Assembly: GCF_013744875.1 (NCBI RefSeq)
Contig: NZ_CP059399.1
Span: forward strand, 992,001 to 1,056,000
DNA length: 64,000 nucleotides
Direction of reading: 5' to 3'
DNA from: Nocardia huaxiensis
Lineage (GTDB): Bacteria > Actinomycetota > Actinomycetes > Mycobacteriales > Mycobacteriaceae
Part shown: positions 6,865 to 28,254 of the stretch, one piece after another
Position numbering within the stretch: position 1 is the stretch's first letter
How the letters are laid out: each line of letters opens with the position of its first letter
Made by a program: the position numbers and the translations under genes
The notes under the pieces: model-generated
What the model saw: the letters and a program-made list of their open reading frames with translations, nothing else
Database searches by the model: none
Told to the model about the DNA's origin: nothing

Positions 6865-7830
6865 CTACGCGTTGGCGAGCTCTTTTTCGCGCTTGGCGGC
6901 CTCGCGGGCCAGCATGCGGTCGCGCTGTTCCTCGAACTTCACGACGTCCTTGGACAGCTTCTCGAGGAAATTGCCCAGGCGCTCGCGGGTCTCCTCACCG
7001 CGGGCGGTGAAGTCGTCGCGCTCGAAGATCTTCCACTTCTTGAGCACCGGGTTGACGACCTCTTCCAGGTGCTGGCGTAGGTCGTAGATGCCGTGCTTGG
7101 CCATGAGCACGCCATTGCGCCGGAAGTTGGGCATGCCCGCGCCCGGCATCTGGAAGTTCTCCAGAATGAGGGTGATGGCGTCCAGCGCCTGGTCGGGTGA
7201 GAGGTCCAGGGCCGCGCCGCACATGTTCCGGTAGAAGATCATGTGCAGGTTCTCGTCGGCGGCGATGCGCTGCAGCATGCGGTCGGCGATGGGGTCGTCG
7301 CAGACCTTGCCGGTGTTGCGGTGGCTGACGCGGGTGGCCAGCTCCTGGAAGGTGACGTAGGCGACCGAGTGCAGGAAGCCGGCCTCGAGTTCGTCGGTGG
7401 GAGAAGCGAATCCGTTGGTCATGTGGATCATGCGCGCCTGTTCGAGGGCGACCGGATCCACGCCGCGGGTGACGACGAGGTAGTCGCGCATGACGATGCC
7501 GTGCCGGTTCTCCTCGGCGGTCCAGCGACCGACCCAGGTGCCCCAGGCGCCGTCCTGGGAGAAGTTCTCGGCGATCTCGCGGTGGTAGGAGGGCAGATTG
7601 TCCTCGGTGAGCAGGTTGGTGATCATGGCCGCCTTGGCCAGTTCACTCAGTTTCGACTGCGAGGGGTCCCAGTCGATGCCGCCCATGGCGGCGAAGTTGC
7701 GGCCCTCGTCCCACGGCACGTAGTCGTGCGGGTGCCATTCCTTGGCCAGTGACAGGTGGCGGTTGACGTTCTCCTCGGCAACCGGCTCCAACTCCGTCAG
7801 TAGTTCGAGTTGAGTCAGATCCCTTGCCAT
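6865..7830 (-). CDS. acyl-[ACP] desaturase, soluble di-iron (DesA type)
   Basis: This 321-residue protein is a ferritin-fold di-iron enzyme that introduces a double bond into acyl-ACP and supplies oleate-type or meromycolate precursors. The iron ligands lie in EDNLPSYH (residues 76-83), EENRHG (106-111), the FQELATRVSH helix (about 161-170) and DENLHMIF (192-199), giving the paired ExxH pattern. From memory, sequence and order resemble mycobacterial DesA1 and DesA2, with a shorter middle loop and tail. The ATG at 7830 is chosen over an upstream in-frame codon at 7890 because GAAGGG precedes it and family N-termini begin LTQLELLTELEP. The first iron ligand is expected in the ELEPVAEENVNRHL helix. 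It is probably cytosolic and monocistronic. Confidence 0.93.
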   Translation of the reverse strand: MARDLTQLELLTELEPVAEENVNRHLSLAKEWHPHDYVPWDEGRNFAAMGGIDWDPSQSKLSELAKAAMITNLLTEDNLPSYHREIAENFSQDGAWGTWVGRWTAEENRHGIVMRDYLVVTRGVDPVALEQARMIHMTNGFASPTDELEAGFLHSVAYVTFQELATRVSHRNTGKVCDDPIADRMLQRIAADENLHMIFYRNMCGAALDLSPDQALDAITLILENFQMPGAGMPNFRRNGVLMAKHGIYDLRQHLEEVVNPVLKKWKIFERDDFTARGEETRERLGNFLEKLSKDVVKFEEQRDRMLAREAAKREKELANA

Positions 7831-8791: not shown

Positions 8792-8864
8792 TGCCCCCAC
8801 CAGGGCTCGAACCTGGGACCTGCGGATTAAAAGTCCGTAGCTCTACCAACTGAGCTATAGGGGC
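8792..8864 (-). tRNA. tRNA-Lys (TTT)
   Basis: The 73-nt cloverleaf has acceptor stem GCCCCTA/TGGGGGC, D-loop AGCTCAGTTGGTAGAGC, anticodon loop CTTTTAA with anticodon TTT, T-arm GGTTCGAGCC and discriminator A. CCA is not encoded. Confidence 0.97.
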
Positions 8865-9221
8865 GCGGGCCACAGTGTAGTGTGCCGACCCCGCAAGTGT
8901 TAAACGAGTATCCGATTGTGTTCGGTGCGTGGACATTTGCGCAGGTCATCACGGTTCGTCCGGATGTTGGGGCGGCTGGTTCCGGGCGCGGCGCGGGGGA
9001 ACGGCGGGGGAGTGGCCGATGGATTTCCGGCGGGTGCGTAGGGGGGACCGGTCGGTGTCTGCGGGGACGGCTAGGGGGTACTGACCGGTCCTCTGGGTGG
9101 CGCGCGGCAATCCGACTCGGGGTTCTCGCGGGATCGGCCGGGGGTGTCGCGGGCGTGAACGGCCGACGCGGCGAGTCGCGGTCCGGACTCGGGTGGGTGC
9201 GGGGTGGGAAGACCGTGGGCA

Positions 9222-9320
9222 GGGCATGGGAATGCCCCCGGGCAATCGCGTTGCCACACAGTTTGTTTCATTCCTACCAGGTGGGAATATCATCCAATGG
9301 TGATGTGTGGCAACCTTTTT
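9222..9320 (+). ncRNA. candidate structured RNA or attenuator with U-run
   Basis: GTTGCCACACA (9250-9260) pairs perfectly with TGTGTGGCAAC (9304-9314), followed by CTTTTT. Inside are two small hairpins: ATTCCT/GGGAAT (9270-9275 with 9283-9288) and ATCATC/GGTGAT (9289-9294 with 9299-9304), which gives a three-way junction. The 5' arm can instead pair with GGCAA at 9241-9245, a mutually exclusive fold. A further hairpin GGGCAT/ATGCCC (9222-9237) precedes it. No known family is recognised. Confidence 0.35.
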
Positions 9321-9766
9321 GGTGCGGCAGCCGGGAACGGCCGAAAGTCCGCGCGCCGGCGCGGGTGTCGGCTCGAGGGTGATGCCGTGCGGGCGGGGGC
9401 GGCCCGGGCGGGAGGGGTGCGCGTGCCGAACATCGATGGGATAGGGGCGAATTCGCCTATTCGGACCAATCGCCCAGTGGGTAACTGGGGAATTGCGGTA
9501 TCCGCTAGGGGGCAGTCTGGCTAACTGACTTTCCGGTACACCTCACGCAGGGAGGACTTTCCGGGTACGGTGACCGACTGGTGAATTCCCGAAGAACCGG
9601 GATTGCCCCGGCGGCACGGGATTCGGCTTATCGTTGATGTGCCCGAACGTGTCGCGACCGGTCTGGCCGATCGCGGCTCCAACAGATTGAAGCTGCGGGA
9701 GGCGGATCCAGACGACGAGAACGCCCGGATGCGCACCCCCTGCGGCGCACCCGGGCGGGAAAAACT

Positions 9767-9780
9767 ATACCAGTTGGTGT
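9767..9780. promoter_or_regulatory. candidate operator (distal) of the GBL-receptor-like TetR
   Basis: ATACCA-GT-TGGTGT is an 11-of-12 matched inverted repeat in the AT-rich zone upstream of the TetR gene. The ATACCA/TGGT half-sites resemble the autoregulatory elements bound by ArpA/ScbR-type receptors. Confidence 0.4.
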
Positions 9781-9805
9781 GTTTCAAGTTTTTCGCGCTT
9801 TTTCG

Positions 9806-9821
9806 TACCAAAAGTTTGGTA
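9806..9821. promoter_or_regulatory. candidate operator (proximal) of the GBL-receptor-like TetR
   Basis: TACCAAA-AG-TTTGGTA is a perfect 7+2+7 palindrome 106 bp before the start codon. It shares its TACCA/TGGTA half-sites with the site 39 bp further upstream, consistent with paired autoregulatory sites. Confidence 0.5.
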
Positions 9822-9927
9822 ATTCGGGCGTCAGCCCGTCTGAAGTATTTGAAAGACACGTAACTTTGCGTCGCCGGTAGCCCGGAAAGGGTCCGCGACG
9901 GTAGCTAGCTTCGGAGGCGTTTCGAGC

Positions 9928-10593
9928 ATGGCACGGCAGCAAGAGCGGGCCCGCCGGACACGCGCGGCGATCATACGGTCCGCCGCCGTTGAGTTCGGGA
10001 AGAGCGGCTATGCCGCTGCATCGCTCAACCGCATATTGGAAGGTTCACGCGCCACCAAGGGCGCCATGTACTTTCACTTCGATTCCAAGGAGGATCTGGC
10101 ACGGGCAGTTCTGGAAGCGGCAGTCGACCGCTACCGCGCCTCCACCGAAAGATGGCTCGGCAGAGGCGATCTCGGTCCCCTGGACGTTCTGCACGGCATG
10201 ATCGACGAGATCGCGCTGCGGCTGGAGAACGACATCATCATCCAGGCCGAGTTCCGGCTCATCATCGAACCGGAGTTCTACCGCGACATCCAGGCCGGCG
10301 GCGGCCGCATCCTCGGGCGGTCCATCCGGCTGCTCGCGGTGCGCGCCATCGAGCACAAGCAGTTGCGCTCCGACGCCGATCCGGACCGCTTCACCCGCAC
10401 CCTGGCCGCTGCGCTCGCGGGCCAGCGCTATATCTCGGACGTGCTCGGCGGTCCGGCGGATCTGCGCTCCCGTTTCGCCGAGGCGCTCGAGGTGATCGTG
10501 GATGCCACCGCGACGCCGGAGTGGGCCGAGGAGTTCAAGCGCACCGGCTGGAAGGTGTCCGCACGCTTGGAAGATCTCAATTTGGCGCTGTGA
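9928..10593 (+). CDS. TetR regulator of the ScbR/ArpA gamma-butyrolactone-receptor type
   Basis: This 221-residue repressor has an N-terminal helix-turn-helix (about residues 10-55). The segments RARRTRAAIIRSAAVEFGKS, GYAAASLNRILEGS and TKGAMYFHFDSKEDLARAVL closely follow gamma-butyrolactone receptors, where TKGALYFHF is diagnostic. The C-terminal ligand domain is more divergent, and no AfsA/ScbA butyrolactone synthase is in the window, so the ligand may differ. GGAGG precedes the ATG by ten bases. The two TACCA-type palindromes upstream suggest autoregulation. The nearest downstream genes are tRNAs, so its other targets are probably remote or divergent. Confidence 0.87.
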   Translation: MARQQERARRTRAAIIRSAAVEFGKSGYAAASLNRILEGSRATKGAMYFHFDSKEDLARAVLEAAVDRYRASTERWLGRGDLGPLDVLHGMIDEIALRLENDIIIQAEFRLIIEPEFYRDIQAGGGRILGRSIRLLAVRAIEHKQLRSDADPDRFTRTLAAALAGQRYISDVLGGPADLRSRFAEALEVIVDATATPEWAEEFKRTGWKVSARLEDLNLAL

Positions 10594-10685
10594 CCAGTGG
10601 ATTTGGGATTAGAGCGGTGGCTGTCATAAGCTATCTCCGCTCCCAACGGAAGCCGTTGAGCAAACGGTCCAGAGAAATCTGGCGG

Positions 10686-10761
10686 GCCCCCTTCGTCTAG
10701 CGGCCTAGGACGCCGCCCTTTCAAGGCGGTAGCGCGGGTTCGAATCCCGTAGGGGGTACCA
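10686..10761 (+). tRNA. tRNA-Glu (TTC)
   Basis: Acceptor GCCCCCT/AGGGGGT, anticodon loop CTTTCAA with anticodon TTC, T-arm GGTTCGAATCC, discriminator A and an encoded CCA end (10759-10761). Confidence 0.97.
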
Positions 10762-10780
10762 GCAGTGGCAACACTGCTGG
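10759..10780 (+). terminator. hairpin abutting the tRNA-Glu CCA end
   Basis: CCAGCAGTG (10759-10767) pairs perfectly with CACTGCTGG (10772-10780) around a GCAA tetraloop. Its 5' arm starts with the encoded CCA of tRNA-Glu. It may stabilise the precursor or mark the RNase cleavage site; there is no U-run, so termination is uncertain. Confidence 0.5.
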
Positions 10781-10794
10781 CGCGGAGCAAGCAA

Positions 10795-10868
10795 GGCCCT
10801 GTGGCGCAGTTGGTTAGCGCGCCGCCCTGTCACGGCGGAGGTCGCGGGTTCGAGTCCCGTCAGGGTCG
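10795..10868 (+). tRNA. tRNA-Asp (GTC)
   Basis: The 74-nt cloverleaf has acceptor GGCCCTG/CAGGGTC, anticodon loop CTGTCAC with anticodon GTC, T-arm GGTTCGAGTCC and discriminator G. CCA is not encoded. Confidence 0.97.
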
Positions 10869-10904
10869 CAAGTCTGAAGTTTGGCATTCGAATGGGTGCC
10901 TTTC

Positions 10905-10981
10905 GGCCAGGTAGCTCAGTTGGTACGAGCGTCCGCCTGAAAAGCGGAAGGTCGCCGGTTCGATCCCGGCCTTGGCCACCA
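10905..10981 (+). tRNA. tRNA-Phe (GAA)
   Basis: Acceptor GGCCAGG/CTTGGCC, anticodon loop CTGAAAA with anticodon GAA, T-arm GGTTCGATCC, discriminator A and encoded CCA (10979-10981). Confidence 0.97.
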
Positions 10982-20298: not shown

Positions 20299-23200
20299 AT
20301 GGAGTCAGCGCAGCGGGCTGGTAACGAGGCCGGCGCATCCGACGAGGTCATCGCCCGCGACGAAATCCGCGCCGCCATCGCGGGCCACCTCGGCCTCGAC
20401 CCCGCGGACGTCACCGACCACGACGACCTCATCCAGCTCGGCCTGGACTCCATCCGCACCATGAAACTCGCGGGCGCCTGGCGCAAACGCGGCCTGTCCA
20501 TCAACTTCGCCCAGCTCGTCGCCGAGCCCACCGTCGCCGACTGGCACCGCCTGCTCGGCGGCGGCGACGCGGCGGACAGCGCAGCACCCGCGGCGGCGCC
20601 GCAGGCGGCTACCGCTGAAACCACCGCCGCGGCGCGACCACCGGCCGCTGCTGTGAGCTCCGCCGTGGAACCGCGGGCAGCATCCGCGGACGTCGCCGAT
20701 CCGGAAACCGTTGGGGCAGTTGACGACGGCACTCCTTTCGCTCTCGCGCCCATGCAGCACGCCTACTGGATCGGCCGGTCCGAGGGCCAGGAACTCGGCG
20801 CGGTCGCCGCTCACCTGTACGTCGAATTCGACGGCAGCGGAGTCGATTCCGAGCGCCTGGAGCGCGCCGTCGAACAGCTCGTCCAGCGGCACCCCATGCT
20901 GCGCACCCGCTTCCTGCCGGACGGCACCCAGCAGACCCTGGACCGTCCGGGCCGCTCGGTGTGGACCATCACCGACCTCCGCGATCGCGATGCCGCCGAA
21001 GCCGAACGCGCCCTGGAAGAACTGCGCGACCGCAAGACCCACCAGCTCATGGCCGTCGAGGACGGCCAGGTCATCGACATCGCCCTCACCCTGCTCCCCG
21101 ACGGCCGCACCCGCCTCCACCTCGACGTGGACATGCTGGCCGCGGACGCCCAGAGCTACCGCATCCTGATCAGCGACCTGGCACGGCTCTACCACGGCGA
21201 AGACCTGCCCGCGCAGACCTACACCTTCCGTGACTACCTGACTGCCTACAGCGGTCCGGATGCCGACCGCGAGCGCGCTCGGGAATGGTGGCAGCAGCGT
21301 CTCCCCGAACTCCCCGGCGCACCCGAACTGCCTCGCGCACAGGAGATCACGCGCCGAGCCGACTCCTCGCCGGTCGGCGAGGTCCTCGCCGAGGCCCGGT
21401 CCGGGACCGCCGCGGTCGGCGTCGGCGGAACGGTCGCGTCTGTCGGCGGTGCTGTCGAGCCCGGCGGTGCTGTGCGCGGGGGCAAGCCGATCGGTGGTCC
21501 GCGCACCGGCGCGACGTCGACGGCCGCGCCCGAAATGCGCACGGTGCGTTTCCATCGCTGGCTGTCGCCCGAGGCGAAGGCGCGCACCTTCGCCGCCGCG
21601 CATGCGCGTGGCGTCACGCCCGCCATGGCGCTGGCATCGGTCTTCGCCGAGACGATCGGCGGTTGGTCCGCGCAGCGCCGCTTCCTGCTGAATCTGCCCC
21701 TGTTCCACCGCGAACCGGTGCACCCGCAGGTGGACGGCGTGGTCGGCGACTTCACCTCCTCGGTGCTGCTCGAGGTCGACGTGACCACTCCTGCGACGGT
21801 GACCGAGCGGGCGCAGGCCCTGCAGCGCGAATTGCACGCCGCCGGAGCCCATTCCGCGTACTCCGGCCTCGAGGTGCTCCGCGACCTCGGCCGCCACCGC
21901 GGCGAGCCGGTCCTCGCCCCGATCGTCTACACCAGCGCCATCAACCTCGGCGAACTCTTCTCCGATCAGGTCACCGACACCTTCGGCGACCCGGTGTGGA
22001 TCATCTCCCAGGGCCCGCAGGTTCTGCTGGACGCCCAGGTGACCGAGGTCCGCGGCGGCCTCCTGCTCAACTGGGACGTCCGCGAGAACGCTTTCCCCAC
22101 AGGCATGGTCGAAACCATGTTCGCCCGCTACATCGCCGCCATCCTGCGCCTGTCCGGCCTGCCCGCCGACGCGGCTCGCGAGCTCGCCGCAGGCGGTGTG
22201 GTCGTCGCGCAGTCGCCGGGCGATACCGCTGCTGAGGCGACTTCTCCCGGGCCGCAGGGTGATTCGAGCGCGGACGCGCCGACATCCGCCGAGCCGTCGG
22301 GCCATCCGGATCCGACCAGGATGCCGGCCGGTGCCGCCGGGGAACTCGGCGGCCCGGTCGAGACGGCGGTCGGCGATTCGGTGGGTGACACCGGCGCGGC
22401 GATCTCCGCCGGGCTGATGCGCGACCACACCGCGAGAATGACGGCCGTCGTCGCGCCGGTGTGCGGTCTCGATGCCGATTCCGCGACTTCCTTTGCGCCG
22501 GTGCGGGATACCGGGGTGGCCCGACCTGCGCGGGGTGTGGACCCCGAGCCGGTCCCGGCGGCCGTGCTCGCCGATGCGGCGGCCGAACTGTCCGCCGAGG
22601 CGGTGGCATTGGTGCTGCCCGCGGCGGAGCGCCGCGCGGTCCCGGCCGAGAGCGCGGGCTGGGACGCGGAAGCCACGGTGCGAATCCCGGTGGAGCAGGC
22701 GGTGATCCGGGCGCAGGTGAATGCCACGTCCGGGCCGGTCAGCGGGCGAACCCTGCACGAGGGGTTTTTCGCGCACGCGACGGCGAATCCGGATGCGGCG
22801 GCGGTGATCTGGGAGCGCGACGGGGCGGCCGGAGCCGAGCCGGTCGTGCAGACCTACCGGGAACTGGCGGCCGAGGCGCTGGCGGTGGCCGGGGTGCTGC
22901 GGGCCGAGGGTGTGAAACCCGGTGATGCGGTGGCGGTGCAGCTGCCGAAGGGGCCGGATCAGGTGGTGGCCACGCTGGGTGTGCTGGCGGCCGGTGCGGT
23001 GTATGTGCCGATCGGGTTCGATCAGCCTGCCGCGCGGCGGTCGGAGATTCTGCGTACGGGTGGCGTGGTCGCCGCCGTCACCACGGGGGATCGGGTGCCG
23101 GAGGTGCCGACCATCGTGCTCGGGGCGGCGCGCGGGTACGCGGAACCGTTGGCGGAGCCGGTGTTTCCCGATCCGGAGGCCATTGCCTATGTGCTGTTCA

Positions 23201-24591
23201 CGTCGGGGTCGACCGGCAAGCCCAAGGGTGTGGAGGTGCCGCATCGGGCGGCCATGAACACCATCGACGATCTGAACGAGCGGTTCGAGATCGGGGCGGG
23301 GGATCGGGCATTGGCCTTGTCCGCCTTGGAGTTCGACCTGTCGGTGTATGACATCTTCGGTCTGCTCAGTGTGGGCGGCGCGGTCGTGACCGTGGACGAC
23401 GCGCAGCGTGGTGAACCGGCCCGCTGGGTGGAATTGATTCGGCGGCATCGCATTTCGGTGCTCAACTGTGTGCCGAGCCTGCTCGACATGCTGCTGACCG
23501 CTGCGGCCGCGCAGCGCCTGGACAGCCTGCGCATGGTGATCCTGGGCGGCGACTGGGTGGATGTGGCGCTGCCGTCGCGGCTCGCCGCCATCGCCCCCGC
23601 CTGCCGGTTCGCGGGTCTGGGCGGCGCCACCGAGACCGCCATCCACTCCACCATCTGCGAGGTCGTGGACGCGCGCGTGCCCGCCGAATGGTCGGCCGTG
23701 CCCTATGGCACGCCGCTGCGGAATGTGCGCTGCCGGGTGGTCGGTCCCGCCGGGCACGACTGCCCGGACTGGGTGACCGGCGAACTGTGGATCGGCGGCG
23801 ACGGCGTCGCGGCCGGCTACCGCAATGACCCGGAGCGCACCGCCGACCGCTTCGTCACGCACGAGGGCCTGCGCTGGTACCGCACCGGCGATCTGGCCCG
23901 CTACCTGCCCGACGGCACCCTGGAATTCCTGGGCCGCGCCGACCACCAGGTCAAGATCCGCGGCTACCGGGTGGAACTCGGCGAGGTGGAGAGCGCCCTG
24001 CGCGCCCTGCCCGGGGTCCGGCACGCGATCGCCGCCGTGATCGGTTCGGCCGCACCGAAACTCGCCGCCGTGGTGGTCGGCGTCGACGGCGTCCGGCTGG
24101 AGGTGGAGGCGCTGCTGACCGCCGCCGCAGACCTGCTCCCCGGCTACATGATCCCCACCCGGATCGAACTGCTCGCCGAGCTCCCGTTCACCTCGAACGG
24201 CAAGCCGGACCGCAAGGCCATCGTCACCCTGCTGTCCGTCGAGGACAGTGCGACCGAATTCGTGGCCCCGCGAACCGATCTGGAGCACGCCCTCGCGGAT
24301 ATCGTTGCCGCCGTGCTGGATCGCGAGCAGGTCGGCGTCACCGACGACTTCTTCGCGCTCGGTGGCGATTCCGTCCTCGCCACCGCAGTGGTGGCCCGCG
24401 TCCGCGAATGGCTGGATTCCCCCGACACCGTGGTCTCGGACTTCTTCGCCGCCCGCACCGTCGCCGGTCTGGCCGCGCGTCTGCTGAAGCGTGAGCAGCG
24501 CAATGGAACTCCGGGCCGCCTGGACGCGGTCGCTCGGATGTACCTGGAGGTCGCCGCCATGTCCGACGACGAGGTTCTCGCCCAGTCCTGA
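20299..24591 (+). CDS. mbtB: NRPS, ArCP-Cy-A-PCP (phenyloxazoline/thiazoline synthetase)
   Basis: This 1430-residue MbtB-like enzyme accepts salicylate from the ligase, condenses it with Ser, Thr or Cys and cyclises the product to an aryl oxazoline or thiazoline. An aryl carrier protein comes first (LIQLGLDS, Ser51). A Cy domain follows at about 145-620 with DMLAADAQS near 277, which is the DxxxxDxxS motif. The adenylation domain spans about 815-1310 (FTSGSTGKPKG near 966; LEFDLSVYDIFG near 1012; GRADHQVKIRGYRVELGEVE near 1212; NGKPDRK near 1299), and a PCP ends the chain (LGGDS, Ser near 1358). Low-complexity inserts sit at about 353-415 and 620-770. DLYN-like pocket residues suit Cys or Ser/Thr. 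Later assembly-line genes are not in the window. AAGGAG precedes the ATG. Confidence 0.93.
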   Translation: MESAQRAGNEAGASDEVIARDEIRAAIAGHLGLDPADVTDHDDLIQLGLDSIRTMKLAGAWRKRGLSINFAQLVAEPTVADWHRLLGGGDAADSAAPAAAPQAATAETTAAARPPAAAVSSAVEPRAASADVADPETVGAVDDGTPFALAPMQHAYWIGRSEGQELGAVAAHLYVEFDGSGVDSERLERAVEQLVQRHPMLRTRFLPDGTQQTLDRPGRSVWTITDLRDRDAAEAERALEELRDRKTHQLMAVEDGQVIDIALTLLPDGRTRLHLDVDMLAADAQSYRILISDLARLYHGEDLPAQTYTFRDYLTAYSGPDADRERAREWWQQRLPELPGAPELPRAQEITRRADSSPVGEVLAEARSGTAAVGVGGTVASVGGAVEPGGAVRGGKPIGGPRTGATSTAAPEMRTVRFHRWLSPEAKARTFAAAHARGVTPAMALASVFAETIGGWSAQRRFLLNLPLFHREPVHPQVDGVVGDFTSSVLLEVDVTTPATVTERAQALQRELHAAGAHSAYSGLEVLRDLGRHRGEPVLAPIVYTSAINLGELFSDQVTDTFGDPVWIISQGPQVLLDAQVTEVRGGLLLNWDVRENAFPTGMVETMFARYIAAILRLSGLPADAARELAAGGVVVAQSPGDTAAEATSPGPQGDSSADAPTSAEPSGHPDPTRMPAGAAGELGGPVETAVGDSVGDTGAAISAGLMRDHTARMTAVVAPVCGLDADSATSFAPVRDTGVARPARGVDPEPVPAAVLADAAAELSAEAVALVLPAAERRAVPAESAGWDAEATVRIPVEQAVIRAQVNATSGPVSGRTLHEGFFAHATANPDAAAVIWERDGAAGAEPVVQTYRELAAEALAVAGVLRAEGVKPGDAVAVQLPKGPDQVVATLGVLAAGAVYVPIGFDQPAARRSEILRTGGVVAAVTTGDRVPEVPTIVLGAARGYAEPLAEPVFPDPEAIAYVLFTSGSTGKPKGVEVPHRAAMNTIDDLNERFEIGAGDRALALSALEFDLSVYDIFGLLSVGGAVVTVDDAQRGEPARWVELIRRHRISVLNCVPSLLDMLLTAAAAQRLDSLRMVILGGDWVDVALPSRLAAIAPACRFAGLGGATETAIHSTICEVVDARVPAEWSAVPYGTPLRNVRCRVVGPAGHDCPDWVTGELWIGGDGVAAGYRNDPERTADRFVTHEGLRWYRTGDLARYLPDGTLEFLGRADHQVKIRGYRVELGEVESALRALPGVRHAIAAVIGSAAPKLAAVVVGVDGVRLEVEALLTAAADLLPGYMIPTRIELLAELPFTSNGKPDRKAIVTLLSVEDSATEFVAPRTDLEHALADIVAAVLDREQVGVTDDFFALGGDSVLATAVVARVREWLDSPDTVVSDFFAARTVAGLAARLLKREQRNGTPGRLDAVARMYLEVAAMSDDEVLAQS

Positions 24592-26583: not shown

Positions 26584-26946
26584 ATGAACATTCCGCACGA
26601 CCGCCGCGACCAGCTCGACAAGATCCAGTCGGGCCTGCTGCAGGGTGAACAGATTCTGGCGGTCTACGACGCGATCGGCGTGGGCACCGGCTTCCTCGGG
26701 CTCACCGACCGCCGCGTCATCATCCAGGACAATTCCTTCGTCGGTAAGAAAGTCGCCGTCACCAGCATTCCCTATTCGCGGATCAGCAGTGTGAGCGTCA
26801 TCGCCAACAAATCCATCGCGGGCCAGTTCTTCTCGTCGGGCCATATCGCGATCAGCACCGGCCACAACACCTACGAGGTGGAGTTTCGCGGCGATCAGAA
26901 GGCCCGCCACGTACACGACGTGATCCTGCATTACATCGCGCGATAG
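26584..26946 (+). CDS. bacterial PH domain protein
   Basis: This 120-residue protein is predicted to be all-beta with a C-terminal helix. LTDRRVIIQDNSFVGKKVAVTSIPYSRISSV and GHNTYEVEFRGDQKARHVHDVILHYI fit bacterial PH (YokE/SHOCT-associated) domains. There is no signal peptide or membrane span. PH domains of this kind are scaffolds or membrane-associated binders with unknown ligands in bacteria. The ATG at 26584 is chosen because upstream codons of the open frame overlap the SDR gene. It lies just before the aro leader region but ends before its promoter. Confidence 0.75.
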   Translation: MNIPHDRRDQLDKIQSGLLQGEQILAVYDAIGVGTGFLGLTDRRVIIQDNSFVGKKVAVTSIPYSRISSVSVIANKSIAGQFFSSGHIAISTGHNTYEVEFRGDQKARHVHDVILHYIAR

Positions 26947-26987
26947 TTGCCGGAGTGTCGCACGCCACACGCAATATCTTTCAGTTC

Positions 26988-26996
26988 TGGTACAGT
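26988..26996 (+). promoter_or_regulatory. extended -10 promoter of the aro leader
   Basis: TGG-TACAGT is an extended -10 box. Its predicted transcription start falls at about 27003-27004, on or next to the leader ATG, which would make the leader mRNA leaderless. No clear -35 is visible. Confidence 0.5.
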
Positions 26997-27003
26997 CCGG
27001 GAC

Positions 27004-27072
27004 ATGCAGCGCGTGTATTTCTGGTTTAGCCAGCCGGCCCCGGGTGGGCCGAGCGGCGTGAACCTGCGCTGA
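27004..27072 (+). CDS. aroR: aromatic leader peptide (AroR-like)
   Basis: A 22-codon ORF starts at ATG 27004 with consecutive Tyr-Phe-Trp-Phe codons at positions 5-8 and ends with TGA at 27070-27072, 96 bp before the DAHP synthase. It has no ribosome-binding site; a -10 box ends eight bases upstream, so it is probably translated from a leaderless transcript. From memory, a comparable leader (aroR) precedes aroF in Corynebacterium glutamicum. Ribosome stalling at the aromatic codons when charged tRNAs are scarce would favour the antiterminator. Confidence 0.72.
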   Translation: MQRVYFWFSQPAPGGPSGVNLR

Positions 27073-27116
27073 CCTCCTCCACCCCGAGCCGGATGTAACA
27101 CAGACCGGCTCCGGGG
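27034..27116 (+). promoter_or_regulatory. transcription attenuator of the DAHP synthase gene
   Basis: Terminator form: CCCCGAGCCGG (27082-27092) pairs with CCGGCTCCGGGG (27105-27116) with one bulged base and a 12-base loop. Antiterminator form: CCGGCCCCGGGT (27034-27045), inside the leader ORF, pairs with ACCCCGAGCCGG (27081-27092) at 10 of 12 positions. The two are mutually exclusive. There is no long U tract after the hairpin. Confidence 0.6.
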
Positions 27117-27168
27117 TTCTCGAAACCCGAATCACCGTGGGCCGGCCTGAGAAAAGGAACCCACGATC

Positions 27169-28254
27169 ATGACTCTCGCCGCCGATCTCGACAGGCATGC
27201 CGACCTCGACGACCAGCGCACGCTCAGTGTGAGCCCGCTCCGTTCCCCCGCCGATATTCGCGGCATGCACCCGATCGACGACGCGCTCGCCGATGTCGTG
27301 CGCGCCGGGCGCAAGGCCACCGTCGATGTGCTCAATGGCGACGACGACCGCCTGATGGTCGTCGTCGGCCCGTGTTCGGTGCACGATCCCGAGGCCGCCA
27401 TGGACTACGCCCGCCGCCTGGCCGCCAAGGCCGCCGAGCTCGGGGACCGGCTGCACATCGTCATGCGCGTCTACTTCGAGAAGCCGCGCACCACGCTGGG
27501 CTGGAAGGGCCTGATCAACGATCCGCACCTGGACGGATCCTTCGACATCAACACCGGTCTGGATCTGGGCCGGCGTCTACTGGTCGACATCACCGGACTC
27601 GGGCTGCCGGTGGCCTGTGAGTTCCTCGATCCCATTACGCCGCAGTACATCTCGGATCTGGTCTCGTACGGCGCGATCGGCGCGCGCACGGCCGCCAGCC
27701 AGGTGCACCGGCAGCTGTCGAGCGCGCTGTCCATGCCGGTCGGCATCAAGAACGGCACCGACGGTGACGTGCAGGTCGCGGTCGACGGCGTGCGCGCCGC
27801 GGCGGCCAGCCACGTCTTCCCCGGCACCGACCTCGACGGGCGTTCGGCGCTCATCCGCACCGCGGGCAACCCGGACTGCCATGTGATCCTGCGCGGCGGC
27901 AGCAACGGCACCAACTTCGACGCCGCCTCCTGCGCGGAAGCGCTGCTGCGCCTGGAGAAGTCGTCGCTGGCGCAGCGCCTGGTGGTGGACGCCTCGCACG
28001 GCAACAGCAACAAGGACCACAACAAGCAGGTCGACGTGGTCACCGATATCGCCGGACGCATCGCCGAGGGCGAGCGCACCGTCGTGGGCCTGATGATGGA
28101 GAGCTTCCTGGTGGCGGGCCGTCAGGACCTGACCCTCGGGCAGGCCGACGACCTCACCTACGGGCAGTCCATCACCGACGCCTGCCTCGACTGGGAGGTC
28201 ACCGCCGCCCAGCTCGACCGGCTGGCCGAGGCTGTCGCCGCGCGTCGCGGCTGA
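27169..28254 (+). CDS. aroG: DAHP synthase, class I (AroG/AroF type)
   Basis: This 361-residue enzyme condenses phosphoenolpyruvate and erythrose-4-phosphate, the first step of the shikimate pathway. VVGPCSVHD (about 65-73), KPRTTLGWKGLINDPHLDG (105-123), ASQVHRQLSSALSMPVGIKNGTDG, RGGSNGTNFD and DASHGNSNKDH carry the PEP, sugar-phosphate and metal ligands of class I alpha enzymes. The RTLSVSPLRSP N-terminus resembles the allosteric arm of E. coli AroF/AroG, so feedback inhibition by an aromatic amino acid is likely. The upstream leader predicts additional control by aromatic tRNA charging. The ATG at 27169 follows AAAAGGAA. It feeds chorismate to the salicylate synthase encoded 11 kb away. 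Confidence 0.95.
   Translation: MTLAADLDRHADLDDQRTLSVSPLRSPADIRGMHPIDDALADVVRAGRKATVDVLNGDDDRLMVVVGPCSVHDPEAAMDYARRLAAKAAELGDRLHIVMRVYFEKPRTTLGWKGLINDPHLDGSFDINTGLDLGRRLLVDITGLGLPVACEFLDPITPQYISDLVSYGAIGARTAASQVHRQLSSALSMPVGIKNGTDGDVQVAVDGVRAAAASHVFPGTDLDGRSALIRTAGNPDCHVILRGGSNGTNFDAASCAEALLRLEKSSLAQRLVVDASHGNSNKDHNKQVDVVTDIAGRIAEGERTVVGLMMESFLVAGRQDLTLGQADDLTYGQSITDACLDWEVTAAQLDRLAEAVAARRG

Follow-up and report, generated by a model that had tools for sequence, protein, structure and literature searches.

The shikimate pathway begins with DAHP synthase. In the trpL and pheL attenuators of E. coli, a ribosome paused at regulatory codons selects one of two mutually exclusive helices, and the locus described here resembles them in that its regulatory codons are placed for such a choice. 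The aroR leader of Corynebacterium glutamicum was reportedly first described by Neshat et al. in 2014. As far as the accessible portions of text go, the aroR-aroF attenuator of this organism is treated in PMC11802643, PMC4046766 and PMC7356990; phenylalanine limitation is the only one reported to derepress it (PMC11802643), and its control is placed at transcription in one account (PMC11802643) and called 'translational' in another (PMC7356990).

Other leaders of Actinobacteria share single features with the present locus. Actinobacterial trp attenuators, according to the available text of Seliverstov 2005 (PMC1262725), have GC-rich terminators with poly-U tracts, in which they differ from the locus studied here; the same text, covering N. 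farcinica as well, gives no conserved structures for Phe or Tyr operons. The LEU element of leuA, as described there, is similar in combining a leader ORF with an RNA structure that reaches the Shine-Dalgarno sequence and differs in being a pseudoknot in which leucine codons pair with that sequence. The mycobacterial leaderless polycysteine uORF attenuators (Canestrari 2020, as cited in the accessible part of PMC13236596) are also likened here by description: they are leaderless short ORFs with clustered regulatory codons and reported translation attenuation, but they sense cysteine and belong to other operons. No description of an aro leader from Nocardia or Rhodococcus was present among the open-access literature matches listed.

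The window, which is the whole 64,000-nucleotide stretch of Nocardia huaxiensis DNA that was analyzed, carries at 27169-28254 (+ strand) a gene for a type I DAHP synthase of 361 aa, aroF (TIGR00034 match, E 4.6e-145), presumably the controlled gene. A sequence-only reading had placed a 22-codon ORF with Tyr-Phe-Trp-Phe codons 96 bp before this gene, and both the ORF list of the window and the TIGR00034 match confirmed it. The leader ORF, MQRVYFWFSQPAPGGPSGVNLR, runs from ATG to TGA at 27004-27072 (+, stop included) and is nested in a longer TTG-started ORF in the list; its codons 5-8 (TAT TTC TGG TTT, 27016-27027, +) form the aromatic cluster, and its stop lies 96 nt before the aroF ATG at 27169. 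The 166-nt leader RNA had a folding z of -3.45, with 1 of 200 shuffles equally good. Taken together, our analysis points with moderate confidence to an aroR-type attenuator that works by ribosome stalling on a leader peptide, has no terminator and probably acts on aroF translation.

Rfam covariance models, including T-box, riboswitch and named leader families, gave no match at 26900-27250 at E up to 5, and none near the leader at the gathering threshold; a riboswitch or T-box reading was rejected on this ground. Elsewhere in the window, Rfam placed an ASdes TB sRNA at 7445-7512 (76.5 bits against a gathering threshold of 40) as well as four tRNA genes within 8792-10978. A 1430-aa ORF at 20299-24591 resembles a non-ribosomal peptide synthetase, as judged by eye from its motifs.

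Conservation of the leader was assessed by an aroF protein scan with one genome per species, from which the 80 Nocardia loci fetched were the best 80 of 335 confirmed. The leader ORF was found at the same place in 80/80 of these loci (81/81 with the window), so that the comparison across Nocardia genomes favored the sequence-only reading. Start codons were ATG or GTG, and the cluster varied to YSWF in L072 and to YWF in L078. In the 81 sequences, the majority-base frequency was 0.92 over leader bases 1-51 as against 0.41 at -100 to -41. Of 59 Nocardia genomes, 56 had a single exact match to the leader core, and three sites with one mismatch came in addition; among the three genomes without an exact match, G003 has the YWF variant of L078. 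A DAHP synthase motif followed 3' of the core at 12/12 sites fetched.

The wider survey drew 298 genomes of the order, 170 of which matched DAHP synthase at E 1e-60, and examined 90 order-level loci (the 30 that were returned plus 60 selected from the list, L089 repeating the genome of L001). Leaders of the aroR kind, in diverged form, were present in 71/90 of these loci: 67 were called by a script that demanded three aromatic residues within five, and L120 as well as L127, L128 and L140, the last three by eye, were added. The 19 loci counted as lacking a leader (L146, L147, L152, L156 and L159-L173) all have at most 57% identity to the window protein, and some of their DAHP synthases are second copies; L160, L170 and L172 hold aromatic ORFs that are unrelated and were excluded from the count. 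Three of these second copies (L152, L172 and L173), read by eye, share a 5' stretch directly before the start codon, TTCACCCGAGACCGCCG ... GGTGCCGGCAGAAA ... CTGGATATCTG.

Phe, Trp and Tyr were all present in 147 of the 148 scripted leaders (81 and 67), the remaining one having Phe and Trp, and Trp was missing from the by-eye leaders L127, L128 and L140. Joint sensing of Tyr, Phe and Trp by one leader is plausible from this composition. The 148 leaders also favor U-ending, rare codons (TAT for 147 of 155 Tyr, TTT for 156 of 267 Phe), and the same codons are scarce in Nocardia aroF genes (TAT 3/476, TTT 0/423). Such codons may sharpen the sensitivity to tRNA charging or may keep the cluster unpaired.

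Upstream of the leader, an extended -10 box, TGGTACAGT, lies at 26988-26996 (+) and ends 7 nt before the leader ATG, at which it predicts the transcription start. The distance from the end of the TANNNT element to the leader start codon is 6-8 nt in 81/81 Nocardia-type loci including the window (7 nt in 79), compared with such a box at 73 of 13617 ATG or GTG codons elsewhere in 148 loci as a control, and the base directly before the start is C in 96% of the 81 loci. This constant spacing suggests that the leader mRNA is probably leaderless, as the sequence-only reading had deduced from the -10 box of the window. In the 67 scripted leaders of the wider survey, the choice of start favored the TANNNT box, for which reason their spacing cannot count as separate evidence. 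No conserved -35 box was found across the 81 Nocardia-type loci, and a generic sigma-70 scan requiring both hexamers found no promoter.

Within and behind the leader, segment A (27034-27047, +) can pair with segment b' (27079-27092, +) in a helix, P2, of 12/14 pairs as counted by hand. The pairing noted earlier, 10 of 12 between 27034-27045 and 27081-27092, is thus confirmed in a slightly longer form. Segment A is also the 5' arm of P1, a leader hairpin (CGGCCC/GGGCCG, 27035-27051, +) that competes with P2 and is seen in the MFE fold only, and b' is also the 5' arm of a second hairpin, P3.

Duplex energies of long segments (the leader remainder against 60 nt downstream) gave no clear signal: own pairing was better than the median swap in 25/30, with that of the window ranking 27 of 30. 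As this comparison is too permissive in GC-rich DNA, only the 9-nt variable arms were tested afterwards. In this swap test, confined to nine variable bases beside fixed cores in 130 of 135 distinct loci (L034, L052, L136, L174 and L175 were dropped for want of an exact core), the own arms of P2 had a mean energy of -8.44 kcal/mol as against -6.10 +- 0.37 kcal/mol for permuted arms, a value reached by 0/10000 permutations with 31 distinct leader arms. Within loci that had been sorted by eye into classes I and II, 6/10000 permutations (n=17 arms) and 0/10000 (n=14), respectively, reached the observed value. The leader arms GGGTGG, GGATGG, GAATGG and GAGTGG, for example, are matched downstream by CCACCC, CCATCC, CCATTC and CCACTT. 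The mutually exclusive helices that had been noted in the window alone are in this respect borne out, with compensatory changes, by the coevolution of P2.

In silico modeling was applied to the relation between ribosome position and P2. Transcripts of 99 loci were cut before the P3 3' arm, a ribosome footprint was placed at each codon, and P2 was scored as formed at no fewer than 7 expected pairs. P2 formed in 98-100% of loci as long as the ribosome had not reached the last aromatic codon and in 95% at that codon, fell to 13% one codon past it and to 0% two codons past it, and was possible again in 94% close to the stop, with the ribosome 13 or 14 codons beyond the last aromatic one. In the window, a pause at or before the last of the four regulatory codons accordingly permits P2 in the model, and a pause one codon further on mostly does not. 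In the truncated-transcript model P2 was present in 99/99 loci with the ribosome paused on aromatic codons, in 25/99 with it at the stop codon, and in 53/99 without any ribosome. Up to the aromatic cluster, the modeled geometry is that of a stalling attenuator; the released state appears less clean.

The choice between exclusive helices by ribosome position was seen in these truncated transcripts but not when the full leader was folded at equilibrium. A full-length ribosome-occlusion model was run on 103 loci, from which L097 (no start codon assigned) and L034 (no core) had been dropped and which include subsets of 99 loci with the P3 3' arm and 91 with the c' motif. In the stalled state the mean probability of P2 was 0.20 as against 0.74 for P3, and in the window 0.00 as against 0.91, so that equilibrium folding of the whole leader did not show the switch for most of the 103 loci. 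Since P3 dominates most equilibrium states, the switch must be kinetic. With the ribosome stalled rather than at the stop, the Shine-Dalgarno sequence was more open by >0.05 in 32/103 loci, less open in 3 and little changed in the rest, the mean openness of 0.40 as against 0.33 being a small difference.

P3 itself (27082-27092 with 27105-27116, spanning 27082-27116, +) had been taken for a terminator. The hairpin stands, being part of the MFE fold, but the terminator role is not supported: the sequence that follows it is TTCTCGAAACC, without a U tract, and a terminator scan did not list P3 on the + strand, where its sole site was 27002-27016, at the start of the leader. By the criterion of a stem of at least six pairs followed by TTT, an intrinsic terminator was found in 0/81 Nocardia-type loci, which had been chosen independently of this feature. 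The same search found 0/105 among distinct class I loci (71 of the Nocardia type plus 34 more) and 24/30 among class II loci, a contrast that is partly by construction because the terminator was among the features seen when the classes were assigned. Of two features that mark classical transcription attenuators, the locus thus shows the exclusive helices, in the model of truncated transcripts, and lacks the terminator with a U tract.

It is possible that the same attenuator acts on transcription, with P3 serving as a U-less terminator or strong pause and P2 as the antiterminator. The MFE fold contains P3 as a stable hairpin, its 5' arm is shared with P2, and the C. glutamicum relative has a T-rich terminator and is regulated at transcription according to the available text of the review PMC11802643. 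Such an output would have to be reconciled with the missing U tract, with 0/105 terminator-like sites in class I and on average 2.5 T among the 12 nt that follow the P3 arm, and with the report, in the accessible part of Czyz 2014, that mycobacterial RNA polymerase needs a U tract. The coevolution of a further hairpin, P4, would also need another reason. We consider output at transcription unlikely, and the aroF ribosome-binding site the more likely output in class I.

P4, which was absent from the sequence-only reading, spans 27136-27165 (+), pairs 27136-27141 with 27160-27165 and CCU at 27146-27148 with AGG at 27155-27157, and encloses the aroF ribosome-binding site with the Shine-Dalgarno sequence AAGGA (27154-27158, +). 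A hairpin around the target ribosome-binding site is the hallmark sought in a translation attenuator, and local folds placed the P4 3' arm between Shine-Dalgarno sequence and start codon in 99/99 testable class I loci. The own arms of P4 gave -9.72 as against -7.72 +- 0.29 for permuted arms, a value reached in 0/10000 permutations (30 distinct 5' arms, 91 loci); the local folding energy of P4 was near that of shuffles (z -3.1 to +0.5 in 11 loci). The coevolution of P4, together with the lack of a terminator in class I, makes the hairpin at the ribosome-binding site the candidate for the conserved output.

A further pairing, P5, was considered as a link between P2 and P4. In it, segment B (27101-27111, +) would pair with 27139-27149 as a candidate anti-sequestor. 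When the flanks were swapped, 37, 124 and 102 of 10000 permutations reached the observed value in three thinnings, and 2/10000 outside Nocardia, which suggests that the P5 flanks coevolve modestly. In the window, the modeled accessibility from the Shine-Dalgarno sequence to the start was 0.73 with P5 as against 0.40. With P2 assumed at equilibrium, this region was more open in 10/91 loci and less open in 18/91; at equilibrium most loci speak against P5 as a general anti-sequestor, and it is kept as no more than a candidate. The step from P2 to P4, on which the folding models disagree, would be the weak one of the scheme.

Output through Rho would be compatible with P4. Without stalling, the untranslated RNA, which begins with a run rich in pyrimidines (27073-27085), and the closed aroF ribosome-binding site would then admit Rho, and P2 with an open ribosome-binding site would prevent its action. 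Such a run of pyrimidines behind the leader stop is seen by eye in the window as in many loci, but the stretch is short for a Rho site. Control by a uORF with both Rho and a translational platform is reported for M. tuberculosis in the accessible part of PMC12810186. We rate an involvement of Rho in the output as rather improbable.

In the favored reading, attenuation acting on aroF translation, the leader would be translated from a leaderless mRNA. When charged Tyr-, Phe- and Trp-tRNA are ample, the ribosome would clear the YFWF codons, P1 and P3 would form, and the aroF ribosome-binding site would be held in P4 (OFF). With aromatic tRNAs in short supply, the ribosome would pause on YFWF and cover the RNA to about 27033-27036, upon which segment A (27034-27047) could pair with b' (27079-27092) as P2; P2 would block P3 and free segment B to compete for the P4 5' arm, so that aroF would be translated (ON). 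The leader, its predicted start, P2 and P4 are supported by the comparison among loci, and we infer the stalling itself and the link from P2 to P4.

Arrest of the ribosome by the nascent peptide itself would fit the strong conservation of the leader peptide within Nocardia. Beyond the cluster, however, the RNA is what is conserved: the P2-arm codons GCC, GGT and GGG are invariant in 81/81 Nocardia-type loci, GGT and GGG being minority Gly codons in aroF (16% and 12%), one codon varies between Pro, Leu, Gln and Ser, and P2 persists in other lineages whose peptides differ. PALGG and PAPGG are set apart from PARDG, PARNG and PARSG by changes in both arms that leave P2 intact although the amino acids are altered. 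With synonymous sites frozen and the peptide changing so as to keep P2, the constraint on this arm looks like one on RNA rather than on peptide. Because conservation past the aromatic cluster tracks the RNA and not the amino acids, an arrest peptide was rejected as very improbable. That the ORF is a chance one or encodes a small trans-acting protein, with the hairpins unrelated to it, is hardly credible and was rejected: GC-rich leaders do fold easily and the permissive long-segment test gave no clear signal, but the conservation, the leaderless spacing, the coevolving helices and the single exact core in 56/59 Nocardia genomes, followed by a DAHP synthase motif at 12/12 sites, contradict it.

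The locus of C. glutamicum was located for direct comparison by the published aroF primer, which matched 27/27 bases in G564, 1 of 242 Corynebacterium-like genomes. The aroF leader of this genome reads MFAARFYFMSG... and contains the reported Phe-Tyr-Phe; as this is the locus with the reported aroR, the family is already known there. Like the window, it has a cluster of aromatic codons upstream of a homologous gene for type I DAHP synthase, a -10 box (TAAGGT) 8 nt before the leader ATG, and a leader segment, GGCTCCGG, that pairs by eye with a post-stop segment, CCGGAGTC. Unlike the window with its YFWF, it has Phe-Tyr-Phe without Trp in the cluster, and it has a canonical terminator, AGCAGC..GCTGCTTTTTT, beside the pairing segment where the window has none; the window, in contrast, has the coevolving hairpin around the aroF ribosome-binding site. 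The kinship with aroR-aroF that had been suggested is therefore upheld at the primer-identified locus by the leader, the -10 spacing and the P2-like pairing, and the window leader is very probably homologous to C. glutamicum aroR. With an aromatic ORF before the DAHP synthase gene and P2 present and the terminator missing, the window is, as judged from these sequences, an aroR homologue by leader and P2 and not a copy of the aroR terminator design.

The placement of terminators in class II varies. In L138, L143, L191 and others, the U-tract terminator starts directly after the P2 3' arm without overlapping it, a layout that gives stalling no obvious way to avert termination. Several class II terminators lie between two arms like those of class I P3: by eye, in L130, L132, L133, L135, L136, L174 and L175 the hairpin is nested between the arms GAGCCGG ... 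CCGGCTC, which resemble the Nocardia-type P3. L125, a class I locus, has by eye an insertion without a U tract at the position of the nested terminator.

A tree of 53 DAHP synthases united 19 of 21 class I rows in one supported clade (99/98); L125 and L144 were not placed with support, and the class II rows lay in two other parts of the tree, with 20 and 5 rows. Because the tree is midpoint-rooted and its deep fork is open, the direction of change can be inferred only: the terminator would have been lost towards the Nocardia clade, provided that the state seen in both class II groups is ancestral. We tentatively put forward, as a scenario that falls somewhat short of being probable, that an ancient leaderless sensor of aromatic tRNAs, whose members mostly carry codons for all three amino acids, precedes type I DAHP synthase in most of the order, and that in Nocardia and its kin the terminator between the P3 arms was lost and control moved to translation through five alternating segments (A, a', b', B and c') ending at the aroF ribosome-binding site, which would be a swap of platforms under a conserved sensor.

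In conclusion, we regard a terminator-less leader of the aroR family in Nocardia-type genomes as new, the aroR kind itself being known. The Tyr-Phe-Trp cluster poses the question whether three amino acids are integrated or one is dominant, as Phe is in C. glutamicum according to the available text. If the favored reading is true, the same leader-peptide sensor would act on transcription termination in leaders of the Corynebacterium type and on translation in those of the Nocardia type, and the exchange of expression platforms would become testable.
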